Assembly: GCF_014131695.1 (NCBI RefSeq)
Contig: NZ_CP036346.1
Span: 2,914,001-2,978,000, forward strand
DNA: 64,000 bases
Reading direction: 5' to 3'
DNA from: Thomasclavelia ramosa DSM 1402
GTDB lineage: Bacteria; Bacillota_I; Bacilli_A; Erysipelotrichales; Coprobacillaceae
Below are positions 1 through 15,551 of the stretch, piece after piece; the first letter of the stretch is position 1; every line of letters starts with the position of its first letter. The notes below the pieces were generated by a model, which searched no databases, was not told where the DNA came from, and worked only from the letters and a program-made list of their open reading frames with translations. The translations under genes were made by a program, and so were the position numbers.

Positions 1-724
<724 letters not shown>

Positions 725-1012
725 TATTTTGGTGTTTGCTTGATTACTATTTTCAACTATTTACTAAAATCCATCCATCCGTTTCGATTTATGTTTTTTA
801 GTGATGAAAATTCTTAGTTTTCGACTTTTCTAGAAAGACCTCAATAATAACAATTACTATTTCGATCTCATTTTCTATTTCTATCGCAATTTATTTTCTA
901 TTATCCAGTTTTCAATGATCTCTGAGTCATACCTGAGTATCACTCAAAACTAAACAGTATCTTCGAAACATCACTTCTCTTGTGCATCATCTTCGATCAT
1001 GCGTTTCTCCTT
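725..1012 (-). other. 16S-23S internal transcribed spacer (A), no tRNA
   Basis: A 288-nt spacer in which I see no tRNA gene. Positions 939-957 are complementary to 2619-2638 in the leader beyond the 16S 5' end, so the 16S precursor can close into a long RNase III-type processing stem. The spacer also holds the 5' half of the 23S processing stem. In operon B that half is 8228-8249, which pairs with 5055-5076 after the 23S gene. Confidence 0.75.
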
Positions 1013-2541
<1,529 letters not shown>

Positions 2542-2665
2542 TTATTTAAACAACTCTTCGTTTGTTTAGCTCTTTTTTCTTTTTTATCCTTCTGGATATT
2601 GACGTGTGTTTCTTAATTCTGTTTAGTTTTCAATGATCTCTCCGGCTTCTTTTGCCGACTTGAAT

Positions 2666-2694
2666 ATCTTACACTCTTTTCGCTTTTTAGTCAA
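2666..2694 (-). promoter_or_regulatory. rRNA promoter P2, operon A
   Basis: On the minus strand, TTGACT (2689-2694), a 17-bp spacer and TAAGAT (2666-2671). It lies about 125 bp before the 16S 5' end and is repeated in operons B and C. Confidence 0.8.
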
Positions 2695-2760
2695 TCTTTT
2701 TTTTAACTTTTTTTGCTTTTTCTCTCCGGTCCTTACGTCCCTTTCCTCGAGTGCCTATTT

Positions 2761-2789
2761 AATTTACCATATCCCTTTTGTCTTGTAAA
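2761..2789 (-). promoter_or_regulatory. rRNA promoter P1, operon A
   Basis: On the minus strand, TTTACA (2784-2789), a 17-bp spacer and TAAATT (2761-2766), upstream of P2. In operon C the homology with A and B stops just beyond this -35 box, as expected if this promoter marks the functional edge of the unit. Confidence 0.6.
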
Positions 2790-3123
2790 GAGTTATTTTC
2801 ACATTATTTTGTGACTTCCCTTTTTTCTCCCATTTTTTCGACTCTTTTCTGATTTTATTTTTTATTAAATACAGCTATTTTATTAACCGTCCCTTCTTTT
2901 TTTTAAAGAATTAAAAACAGGTCTATTTTTCAATACAACGCAAAAACATCATGTCTGCTGATATTTTATCTGATTCTTCGCCAAACGCTCTTATTTTAAA
3001 TAAAATGCCTGTACCAGCTCTGTTAGAGTTTACTTTATCGCCTGCACGATCATAAATATTTTTACCTGGTATATTGTAATTGACTCATTTAATAGTCATC
3101 TACAAATATACCTTCTCCTTTCT

Positions 3124-3311
3124 ATCAACCATTTAAACCGTGGTTGATTACGGTTAAGTTAATTTGTAAAATATTTAATATGTAAATGTGGATTTGTATT
3201 TTTTCACCTTGTAGCATGACTACTTTAGGCAGGCCCTTACCACAACCTTATTCCTAAATAATGATTAGTTATATGAGTCTTGAATTCGTATTTTGCACCA
3301 GGTTTTGTGGT
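3124..3311 (+). ncRNA. Candidate IS110 bridge RNA
   Basis: The non-coding left end can fold as a bridge RNA. A 5' stem-loop is possible at 3124-3148 (ATCAACC/GGTTGAT) or 3136-3155 (AACCGT/ACGGTT). A target loop follows: TTTTCACCT (3201-3209) resembles the left target strand. Next come a GTAG/CTAC hairpin (3211-3223) and AGGCAGG (3227-3233), the reverse complement of CCTGCCT across the empty site at 10395-10401. A donor loop is closed by ACCACAACC (3239-3247) with GGTTTTGTGGT (3301-3311). Inside it TAGTTA (3266-3271) matches the right end of the element, and ACCAGGT (3297-3303) is complementary to the left-end junction ACCTGGT. The order matches known bridge RNAs. Exact transcript ends are unknown. 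Confidence 0.65.
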
Positions 3312-3365
3312 CTAAGTGTTGTGGATACCTTTTCACATATTTTTATCAAGAAAGGATCTTTTATT

Positions 3366-4547
3366 ATGAAATTAGTTGGTATCGATATTGAAAAAAAACA
3401 CTTCTTTTGTATTATGGACAAAGATAGTGGTGAAGTTTTACTTCAACCTTCTTCTTTTTCCAATACTAAAGATGGATTTGATTCTCTAATCCAAAAACTT
3501 AGTTCTTATTCTAAGGACTCTATATTGATTGGTATGGAAGACACCGGGCATTATCATTTTGCTTTATTAAAGTATCTTTTAGAAAAAAATTTTACTGTTG
3601 CTCTTATCAACCCTAAAACTACTGATTACACTCGTAAAATACAGAACGGCATCACTAAGAATGATAAACTTGACACTCTTACTATCTGTGATGTTTTGGA
3701 TACTCCTGTACGAAAAAAGCAGTATCGTATTACAAAAGTCAACAGCTTCGATCTTTATGAACAAAAGCAATTAACTAGACATCATCACAATTTAAAAGAA
3801 GAACTCAATGTTTATACAAACCGCCTACAAAAATGCATTGATATTGTTTTCCCTGAATTCAACAGCTTATTTTCATCTAAATACGGCATTATCTACATGA
3901 ATGTACTTAAAACATTTGGCAGTGCTGAAAATATCGCTAGTACTGATATTAGAACTATTCGCAAATGTTTTGAAATAAAAGGCCGAGGGAACCGCATATC
4001 TCTAACTGCACAGCAGCTTAAAGACTCTGCTAAATCTTCTATTGGAATTTCATCAGCAGCAGAAGTAATCAAAATCAAACATCTGATAAGTCAGATTGAA
4101 CTTATCAATGAACAGTTAGCTGAAACAGATAAAAAAATAGAAGAGTTTTCCATCCAAAATAACTCTCCTATCCTATCCATCCCAGGGATTTCTCATTTCT
4201 TTGGTACTTCTATTTTAGCCGAATTAGGAGAGATAAGCAACTATTCTAAGCCATCTAAGATAATAAAAGCAGCTGGTGTTGCTCCTTATCATTACGAATC
4301 AAGTCAATACAACGCACAACATACTGCTATTACCAAGAAAGGTTCACCATATTTGAGAAAGACTTTATATCAGATCATATTGCCTGTGATTAATAATAAT
4401 CCGGTATTTAAACAATATTATGATTTAAAGATTTCTCAAGGTAAAGGTCATCGTTGTGCTTGTGGACATTGTGTTAGAAAATTGCTTAGAATTATTTATC
4501 ATCTTTCAAGTACCAATCAACAATTTGATGATGCACTTTTAAGATAA
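3366..4547 (+). CDS. IS110 family transposase (recombinase)
   Basis: A 393-residue IS110 recombinase. The start chosen is the ATG at 3366, preceded by AGAAAGGA, rather than the upstream in-frame codon at 3261, which would run through the bridge-RNA region. The N-terminal RuvC-like DEDD domain shows D6 (GIDIEKK), the E of GMEDTGHY near residue 60 and the D pair in NDKLDTL near residues 98-101. The C-terminal Tnp_IS116/IS110/IS902 domain contains LSIPGISHFFG and the KGSPYLRK segment with the candidate catalytic serine. IS110 enzymes act with a bridge RNA that pairs with target and donor DNA. The frame is intact and the neighbouring site is clean, so the element may be active. Confidence 0.95.
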   Translation: MKLVGIDIEKKHFFCIMDKDSGEVLLQPSSFSNTKDGFDSLIQKLSSYSKDSILIGMEDTGHYHFALLKYLLEKNFTVALINPKTTDYTRKIQNGITKNDKLDTLTICDVLDTPVRKKQYRITKVNSFDLYEQKQLTRHHHNLKEELNVYTNRLQKCIDIVFPEFNSLFSSKYGIIYMNVLKTFGSAENIASTDIRTIRKCFEIKGRGNRISLTAQQLKDSAKSSIGISSAAEVIKIKHLISQIELINEQLAETDKKIEEFSIQNNSPILSIPGISHFFGTSILAELGEISNYSKPSKIIKAAGVAPYHYESSQYNAQHTAITKKGSPYLRKTLYQIILPVINNNPVFKQYYDLKISQGKGHRCACGHCVRKLLRIIYHLSSTNQQFDDALLR

Positions 4548-4759
4548 AATAAATGCATTAAAATTAAAAAAAGGCCAATTTTGGTTCTTTTCGTCATGCC
4601 CAAAAATTACAAATCATTATTCACATTTCAAGGATCTATACTACTTAACATATAAAATCATTTATTTTAACATTTTCAAACTTTTTCATAAAAACACTTG
4701 AATTTTATATAGTTACCTGCCTTAGATAATCTATCCTGATCCTGCAGGAAAAATCACAA

Positions 4760-4786
4760 CAGCTGTTATTATCTTAATAACAGCTG
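4760..4786. repeat. 12-bp inverted repeat in rrn spacer
   Basis: CAGCTGTTATTA and TAATAACAGCTG form a perfect 12-bp stem with a 3-nt loop, repeated at 10439-10465. It lies about 90 bp past the 5S terminator. It has no clear T tract on either strand, so its role (backup terminator, processing site or protein site) is open. Confidence 0.7.
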
Positions 4787-4874
4787 ATAACCCGGGCTAA
4801 TTAAAACTATAGCAGTAAGTCGATGATAGACGACATAATTCATCCAGAACTGCTTATATTAAAGCCGGATATAA

Positions 4875-4902
4875 AATAAAAAAAGGATACGCAGAGGTAT
4901 CC
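4875..4902 (-). terminator. Terminator of rrn operon B
   Basis: On the minus strand, GGATAC-CTCTGC-GTATCC is followed by an uninterrupted T run, just after 5S: a classical intrinsic terminator. Confidence 0.9.
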
Positions 4903-4915
4903 GTAAATAAAAAAA

Positions 4916-5026
4916 GAACCGGCAGCTTGCTATTGTCGCACCTTGGTACTATCTTCGCCGTTATGATGCTTAACTTCTGTGTTCGGTATGGGAACAGGTG
5001 TGTCCATCATGCTATCGCTACCAGAT
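4916..5026 (-). rRNA. rrf: 5S rRNA (operon B)
   Basis: About 111 nt with the conserved 5S segments (the CCGAACACAGAAGTTAAGC region on the minus strand) between 23S and the terminator. Ends are accurate to a few bases. Confidence 0.93.
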
Positions 5027-5142
5027 CTTCTTTTCTAAGCAATTCCTTTCGAGAATCACTCAAAACTAGATAATAGTTTTCTTGCGTCTTTTGTCTTCCA
5101 CTTTGTCTTCTTTCAGTTTCAAGCCTTAACCCTTTTTCTCTA

Positions 5143-8055
<2,913 letters not shown>

Positions 8056-8342
8056 TATTTTGGTGTTTGCTTGATTACTATTTTCAACTATTTACTAAAA
8101 TCCATCCATCCGTTTCGATTTATGTTTTTAGTGATGAAAATTCTTAGTTTTCGACTTTTCTAGAAAGACCTCAATAATAACAATTACTATTTCGATCTCA
8201 TTTTCTATTTCTATCGCAATTTATTTTCTATTATCCAGTTTTCAATGATCTCTGAGTCATACCTGAGTATCACTCAAAACTAAACAGTATCTTCGAAACA
8301 TCACTTCTCTTGTGCATCATCTTCGATCATGCGTTTCTCCTT
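8056..8342 (-). other. 16S-23S spacer (B), no tRNA
   Basis: 287 nt, one base shorter than in A and C because a T run near 8125-8129 has five T instead of six. No tRNA is visible. Positions 8269-8287 pair with 9949-9968 to form the 16S processing stem. Confidence 0.75.
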
Positions 8343-9871
<1,529 letters not shown>

Positions 9872-9995
9872 TTATTTAAACAACTCTTCGTTTGTTTAGC
9901 TCTTTTTTCTTTTTTATCCTTCTGGATATTGACGTGTGTTTCTTAATTCTGTTTAGTTTTCAATGATCTCTCCAGCTTCTTTTGCCGACTTGAAT

Positions 9996-10118
9996 ATCTT
10001 ACACTCTTTTCGCTTTTTAGTCAATCTTTTTTTAACTTTTTTTGCTTTTTCTCTCCGGTCCTTACGTCCCTTTCCTCGAGTGCCTATTTAATTTACCATA
10101 TCCCTTTTGTCTTGTAAA
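9996..10118 (-). promoter_or_regulatory. rRNA promoters P2 and P1, operon B
   Basis: P2: TTGACT (10019-10024), 17 bp, TAAGAT (9996-10001). P1: TTTACA (10113-10118), 17 bp, TAAATT (10090-10095). The layout is the same as in operon A. Confidence 0.7.
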
Positions 10119-10252
10119 GAGTTATTTTCACATTATTTTGTGACTTCCCTTTTTTCTCCCATTTTTTCGACTCTTTTCTGATTTTATTTTTTTATTAAAT
10201 ACAGCTATTTTATTAACCGTCCCTTCTTTTTTTTAAAGAATTAAAAACAGGT

Positions 10253-10432
10253 CTATTTTTCAATACAACGCAAAAACATCATGTCTGCTGATATTTTATC
10301 TGATTCTTCGCCAAACGCTCTTATTTTAAATAAAATGCCTGTACCAGCTCTGTTAGAGTTTACTTTATCGCCTGCACGATCATAAATATTTTTACCTGCC
10401 TTAGATAATCTATCCTGATCCTGCAGGAAAAA
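10253..10432 (-). pseudogene. Gene-tail remnant, intact copy in C/B rrn spacer
   Basis: A 59-codon minus-strand frame without a start codon, bounded upstream by an in-frame TGA and ending in TAG. It would encode a tail with GKNIYDRAGDKVNSNRAGTG and a final MMFLRCIEK. I do not recognise the family. It is the uninterrupted version of the sequence split by IS110 in the other spacer, and it contains the empty insertion site at 10396-10397. It may be a fragment of the gene that once lay after an rrn operon. Confidence 0.35.
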
Positions 10433-10438
10433 TCACAA

Positions 10439-10465
10439 CAGCTGTTATTATCTTAATAACAGCTG
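10439..10465. repeat. 12-bp inverted repeat in rrn spacer (second copy)
   Basis: Same perfect inverted repeat as at 4760-4786. Confidence 0.7.
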
Positions 10466-10553
10466 ATAACCCGGGCTAATTAAAACTATAGCAGTAAGTC
10501 GATGATAGACGACATAATTCATCCAGAACTGCTTATATTAAAGCCGGATATAA

Positions 10554-10581
10554 AATAAAAAAAGGATACGCAGAGGTATCC
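10554..10581 (-). terminator. Terminator of rrn operon C
   Basis: Same GGATAC/GTATCC hairpin and T run as after operon B. Confidence 0.9.
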
Positions 10582-10594
10582 GTAAATAAAAAAA

Positions 10595-10705
10595 GAACCG
10601 GCAGCTTGCTATTGTCGCACCTTGGTACTATCTTCGCCGTTATGATGCTTAACTTCTGTGTTCGGTATGGGAACAGGTGTGTCCATCATGCTATCGCTAC
10701 CAGAT
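10595..10705 (-). rRNA. rrf: 5S rRNA (operon C)
   Basis: Identical in extent to the copy at 4916-5026. Confidence 0.93.
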
Positions 10706-10821
10706 CTTCTTTTCTAAGCAATTCCTTTCGAGAATCACTCAAAACTAGATAATAGTTTTCTTGCGTCTTTTGTCTTCCACTTTGTCTTCTTTCAGTTTCA
10801 AGCCTTAACCCTTTTTCTCTA

Positions 10822-13734
<2,913 letters not shown>

Positions 13735-14022
13735 TATTTTGGTGTTTGCTTGATTACTATTTTCAACTATTTACTAAAATCCATCCATCCGTTTCGATTT
13801 ATGTTTTTTAGTGATGAAAATTCTTAGTTTTCGACTTTTCTAGAAAGACCTCAATAATAACAATTACTATTTCGATCTCATTTTCTATTTCTATCGCAAT
13901 TTATTTTCTATTATCCAGTTTTCAATGATCTCTGAGTCATACCTGAGTATCACTCAAAACTAAACAGTATCTTCGAAACATCACTTCTCTTGTGCATCAT
14001 CTTCGATCATGCGTTTCTCCTT
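13735..14022 (-). other. 16S-23S spacer (C), no tRNA
   Basis: 288 nt like copy A, with no tRNA seen. Positions 13949-13967 pair with 15629-15648 around the 16S gene. Confidence 0.75.

Positions 14023-15551
<1,529 letters not shown>

Follow-up and report, generated by a model that had tools for sequence, protein, structure and literature searches.

A predicted left-end bridge RNA in an IS110-group insertion sequence of Thomasclavelia ramosa, and Shine-Dalgarno-like target guides among its relatives

Results and discussion

A 64,000-nucleotide stretch of the genome of Thomasclavelia ramosa DSM 1402 (the window) carries an insertion sequence that is best explained, at a probability of about 95%, as an autonomous element of the IS110 group with a bridge RNA in its left end, which guides target and donor pairing for strand exchange at a CT core (Table 1). 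It was compared with relatives of 42-84% protein identity from Erysipelotrichales genomes. In this gut clade of IS110 elements, it is probable that the right target guide is the Shine-Dalgarno sequence of the host, used as a genome-wide address, that the handshake rule of IS621 fails in the target loop, that the DNA of the guide can itself be hit (as in the relative L044), and that the copy in the window has been retargeted to an rRNA spacer.

Table 1. Features of the IS110 element, its predicted bridge RNA and its target sites (window coordinates unless stated otherwise)
Feature	Position	Strand	Details
IS110 element	3066..4718	+	1653 bp, core CT 3066-3067 to core CT 4717-4718; from empty-spacer comparison, ends agreeing with 25+ relatives
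Recombinase gene, 393 aa	3366..4547	+	one recombinase gene in the element; RuvC-like DEDD domain and Transposase_20 domain
Bridge RNA (predicted)	3169..3342	+	match to covariance model R1, 157.7 bits, E 3.6e-28
Bridge RNA 5' hairpin	3124..3148	+	ATCAACC 3124-3130 with GGTTGAT 3142-3148
Left target guide TTTTCACCT	3201..3209	+	left target TTTTTACCT, one mismatch
Stem-loop between target guides	3211..3223	+	GTAG 3211-3214 with CTAC 3220-3223
Right target guide AGGCAG	3227..3232	+	pairs with CTGCCT of the top strand; followed by handshake base G3233
Donor-loop stems	3240..3324	+	CCAC 3240-3243/GTGG 3321-3324; CTTA 3247-3250/TAAG 3313-3316; compensatory changes
Left donor guide TAGTTATAT	3266..3274	+	donor TAGTTACCT; covaries with donor ends across subgroups
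Right donor guide ACCAG	3297..3301	+	pairs with CTGGT at left end; handshake bases GT 3302-3303
-35-like TTGAAT	4698..4703	+	right end; in the excised circle 17 bp from -10-like TATATT (3070-3075)
Empty target TTTTTACCTGCCTTAG	10389..10404	+	situated in the next rRNA spacer; core CT at 10396-10397
Relict L002, decayed relative	L002 1498-2252 (G000:C1:3101397-3102151)		guides and target differ from those of the window element

The element and its insertion locus

The beginning of the window (1-15551) contains on its minus strand at least three tandem rRNA operons, with 16S genes at 1015-2541, 8345-9871 and 14025-15551. The spacers of these operons are closely alike, and only one of them within the window contains an IS element, which is flanked by the 5S gene of one operon (4917-5025, minus strand) and by the 16S gene at 1015-2541, which belongs to the following operon; an element-free copy of the spacer is present at about 10,000-10,590. 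The insertion is at a short core without any extra target duplication: TTACCTG is common to the empty site (10396-10397) and the junctions because donor and target each carry it. The aligned ends are unambiguous across the relatives (left CTGGTATATTRTAA, right TATATAGTTAGCT). An inverted repeat at the extreme left end (3068-3112), GGTATATTGTA...TACAAATATACC, is kept in relatives. In L058-L062 and L075-L079 the right ends have the core AT and the left junction is AT or TT, only the T being common to both junctions. Viral contigs were also searched for relatives of the element, and none were found there.

The recombinase matches the Pfam families PF01548 (4.8e-36) and PF02371 (7.8e-18), both above the cut-off, and its only sequence relatives in the PDB are the recombinases of ISCro4 (9t56) and IS621 (8wt6). 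Residues D7, E57, D100, D103 and S312 align with residues of the IS621 and ISCro4 proteins in the alignment to the PDB chains, S312 falling on the catalytic S241 of IS621 if the PDB chain is taken to carry a tag of 2 residues. In keeping with the IS110 group, the element has a noncoding left end of 298 nt (3068-3365) against a shorter right end of 171 nt (4548-4718) and lacks long terminal inverted repeats. Judged from sequence, the domains, the catalytic serine, the lengths of the ends and the short core all fit assignment of the element to the IS110 family, IS110 group. Elements of the IS1111 group have their RNA in the right end and possess long subterminal inverted repeats (PMC11187229), whereas the RNA of the present element is in its left end.

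Structure of the bridge RNA

Covariance model R1, which was built from relatives only, with the sequence of the window excluded, has its best match in the window at the left end of the element, and the next-best score in the window is 14 bits. The 5' hairpin consists of 7 pairs, 6 of which show two-sided compensatory changes (RNAalifold, 26 left ends). In the stem between the target guides, which was also found by RNAalifold in the 26 left ends, 99.2% of cells are paired and 2 pairs have two-sided changes. Over all of the named stems in 33 sequences, 91.6% of cells are paired, and two-sided changes number 39, versus 12.0 +/- 2.6 when shuffled. Covariation links CCAC (3240-3243) to both GTGG 3188-3191 and GTGG 3321-3324; the two pairings may represent alternative states of the RNA.

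The evidence for structure is comparative, since the minimum-free-energy fold of the single sequence is no better than those of its shuffles (z = +0.84) and was rejected as evidence for that reason. A search of Rfam with positions 2700-5000 gave no match to a bridge RNA family even at E 5. The first-pass annotation of this DNA had suggested folding the region with a covariance model from related left ends, and it is such a model that finds the RNA at 3169-3342; the GTAG/CTAC hairpin that it had noted is likewise kept in relatives. The stem ACCACAACC/GGTTTTGTGGT, with which it had closed the donor loop, was rejected: L048, L050 and L030 are among the relatives that lack this stem, and the conserved pairs are instead CCAC with GTGG 3321-3324 and CTTA with TAAG.

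Target guides and their sites

The RNA in the window has the layout of the IS621 type, with a target loop 5' of a donor loop, each containing two guides complementary to the top and bottom strands. When CT sites of the 64-kb window were scanned in a register fixed from the relatives, both target guides (left at least 6 of 7, right 4 of 4) fitted only one site out of 7,157, namely the native empty site. The 16-bp target is found as an exact match at only two places in the genome, 2911379 and 2924389, the latter being window position 10389.

Guides and targets change together across 18-21 related elements. Right guides match their own right targets at 69 of 90 positions (39.9 +/- 4.6 when shuffled; 18 distinct elements), and left guides match their own left targets at 116 of 147 positions (88.6 +/- 4.0; 21 distinct elements); in the fixed register, none of 20,000 shuffles equalled the real match for the right guide, nor did any of 20,000 for the left. 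Each permutation set contained one representative per distinct element, copies in the same genome being treated as separate insertions that share guides. The left target guide is T-rich, and part of its match therefore reflects low complexity. Across insertions, the core CT and the C at target position 7 hardly vary. L048 and L049 have left ends that are nearly identical except for the left guide, and their left targets differ too. Among the relatives, the right guide GGCAG is found in the window element only. The relict L002, in the same genome, has a left guide TTTGCCTTCT and a right guide GAAAAG that match its own site, TTGACTT-CT-TTTC; it sits in a ribosome-binding site, before a gene that we take, from its translation, to encode a phosphoglycerate-mutase-like protein.

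Donor guides and donor ends

By inspection across subgroups, in which at least three states were distinguished, the donor guides follow the donor ends in sequence. Elements of the close group combine the donor TAGTTAG with the guide TAGTTAG, the G006, G232 and G078 groups combine TAGTTGT with TAGTTGT, and L058 combines the donor TAGTTCA with the guide TAGTTCG; in the AT-core subgroup the right donor guide is ACCAT, replacing ACCAG. In the window the left donor guide forms a U-G wobble at position 7 (donor TAGTTAC, guide TAGTTAU) and is mismatched at core position 8 (A opposite C8), as in CT-core elements. Position 7 is not always paired, since L013, L054 and the relict L002 have a guide G against donor T, T and A, respectively. 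For L053, whose guide TAGTTTGAT predicts a donor end, a search of 1.5 kb revealed no right end.

The proposal of the first-pass annotation, that the left end is a bridge RNA with guides matching its own insertion site, is thus supported by the permutation tests, the relatives-only model and the unique fit to the empty site. Both of the complementarities that it had reported are exact: AGGCAGG (3227-3233) is the reverse complement of CCTGCCT (10395-10401), and ACCAGGT (3297-3303) that of the left junction ACCTGGT (3064-3070). Its likening of a segment beside the hairpin to the left target strand holds for TTTTCACCT (3201-3209) and TTTTTACCT except at one position, and TAGTTA (3266-3271) does equal the right-end donor TAGTTA[C]CT, the wobble and the mismatch just described appearing when the full guide is considered. 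The left-end location and the order of target loop then donor loop agree with the published model of IS621 (PMC11208160, PMC11208158). Its two questions about other insertions and homologues were answered in its favour, as other insertions have guides that match their own sites, including the different guides and different site of L002, and guide segments in homologues covary with targets (by permutation) and with donor ends (by inspection).

Handshake bases and apparent insertion into a guide

Strand exchange in IS621 is locked if the base that follows the right target guide pairs with position 7 of its own target (PMC11208158). In the present clade, 26 of 29 insertions combine a G in this place with a C at target position 7, a cognate pairing that seems to break the rule and corresponds to the state in which IS621 was locked in vitro. 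The G of the donor-loop handshake is also able to pair with target C7. Donor position 7 is usually G in the clade; the window donor has C7, making both handshake pairings possible in the window. Either the IS621 handshake rule lacks generality or a different register applies here.

In L044 (in genome G285), the left flank repeats 143 bp of the element's left end without a change and stops right at the core CT of the left target guide; the complete element follows this duplicate, and its right flank is an ordinary target. The simplest reading seems to be that the element inserted into its own guide, after which one copy was lost by homologous recombination.

Probable targeting of Shine-Dalgarno sequences

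The right target guide in the clade is usually AGAAAGG, AAGGAGG or GGAGGAT, which is a Shine-Dalgarno sequence, and most insertions lie in or just beside Shine-Dalgarno sequences because the guide itself spells one. Reconstructed sites of the clade include AAAGGAGGAATATTTCATG, AGAAAGGAGTGAAACGATG and GGAGGATATGTATG, among others. Shine-Dalgarno sites were defined, with the left flank read on the bottom strand, by an ATG 5-16 nt beyond the core and an open reading frame of at least 50 codons. By this definition 39 of 57 insertions of the clade (68%) qualify, versus 201 of 2,035 AGG sites in the same flanks (9.9%; binomial p 3e-26). The insertion cuts the Shine-Dalgarno string at a fixed base and in a single orientation. 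In a distant group of 32% identity (L032, L088-L091), an ATG is found at most 11 nt from the junction in 5 of 5 insertions, with the right flank CTCCTTT.

Several distant IS110 groups (L123-L138, L032, L088-L091 (G041), L097, L102, L108, L114, L118 (G022)) also appear to be bordered on the right by a CCTCC-like sequence and on the left by a CAT start. In some distant groups, the apparent left end reads as a Shine-Dalgarno sequence and ATG for the host gene, e.g. CATATATTCCTCC.

The copy in the window is an exception, with the right guide GGCAGG and a target in the spacer between rRNA operons. It is read as a natural retargeting from ribosome-binding sites to the rRNA spacer, a direction suggested by the rarity of its target among relatives. 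An open reading frame of ATG, 7 codons and a stop beyond the window target was considered as evidence of a ribosome-binding-site target and rejected.

Comparison with known systems

The element is of the known IS110/bridge-RNA kind. Like IS621 (PMC11208160, PMC11208158) it has, as far as sequence can tell, an RNA in the left end with a 5' hairpin, a target loop followed by a donor loop and two guides around a stem in each, as well as a CT core, a promoter at the circle junction and a recombinase with DEDD and serine residues. Unlike IS621, the recombinases of the clade have about 400 aa (326 aa in IS621), their right target guide is longer, and their target is a ribosome-binding site or, in the window, an rRNA spacer, whereas that of IS621 is a REP element. 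The seekRNAs of IS1111 and IS110 elements (Siddiquee et al. 2024, PMC11187229) similarly come from a noncoding end and match each target strand, and their natural reprogramming has been reported (ISEc11 versus ISXne4; PMC11187229).

Shine-Dalgarno targeting was not judged to be wholly new, as IS900, an IS110-family element of Mycobacterium avium subsp. paratuberculosis, offers a precedent: by the account in PMC8141618, IS900 inserts in the interval from ribosome-binding site to start codon, with the motif CATGNNNNNNTCTCCTT, and its 1997 description (Doran et al.) is titled 'IS900 targets translation initiation signals'. IS900 is actinobacterial, unlike the present clade, and no guide RNA was known when it was described. 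A search of the literature on IS110 or bridge RNA together with Shine-Dalgarno, with most subscription journals outside its reach, found no report tying this class of target to a guide RNA.

Proposed mechanism and alternative explanations

Excision of the element as a circle would join its ends and create the promoter TTGAAT-17-TATATT, from which the bridge RNA should be transcribed, as published for the circle junction of IS621 (PMC11208160, PMC11208158); a TTGANT-N17-TATATT junction is shared by almost all CT-core relatives for which both ends are available. The RNA, presumably bound by the recombinase, would use its first loop to pair with the two target strands and its second loop to pair with the two strands of the element's joined ends, and the DEDD/serine recombinase would then swap strands at the CT core. 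Right guides with a Shine-Dalgarno sequence would bring most copies of the clade to rest between ribosome-binding site and start codon, and the changed guides of the window copy (GGCAGG) would direct it to the spacer between the tandem rRNA operons of its host.

Were the recombinase alone to read DNA, with guide-like strings in the left end as by-products, the near constancy of the core CT and of the C at target position 7 would be accounted for, and contacts between protein and core are known in IS621; however, where near-identical elements differ in their guide segments, their sites differ accordingly, L048 and L049 differing in both left guide and left target, and RNA was required in the experiments with IS621 (PMC11208160), all of which makes this explanation very improbable. 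Still less credible is a chance likeness of a T-rich left end to its flanks. The T-run of the left guide is indeed of low complexity and the single-sequence fold is not significant, but the guides jointly fit only 1 of 7,157 CT sites, the relatives-only model scores 157.7 bits, and the permutation tests of covariation refute chance.

For the Shine-Dalgarno pattern, insertion might instead be random with respect to ribosome-binding sites, only those copies just upstream of genes surviving. All of the insertion sites observed are those of survivors of selection, purifying selection against gene disruption is expected, and the enrichment may partly be survivorship, insertions within genes being purged. 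As a full explanation this is unlikely, though somewhat less so than a recombinase reading DNA alone: survival by itself predicts neither the Shine-Dalgarno right guide of most elements nor the splitting of the string at a fixed base in one orientation, and AGG sites in the same flanks yield a rate of 9.9%.

Conclusions

The bridge-RNA reading of this element, backed by a native empty site and by a retargeted relict in the same genome, is a confirmation by natural comparison of bridge-RNA targeting in Firmicutes. The apparent breach of the handshake rule matters for the engineering of IS110 recombinases. A guide that spells the Shine-Dalgarno motif offers an RNA explanation for the occurrence of some IS110 elements at translation-initiation sites, observed since 1997 in IS900.
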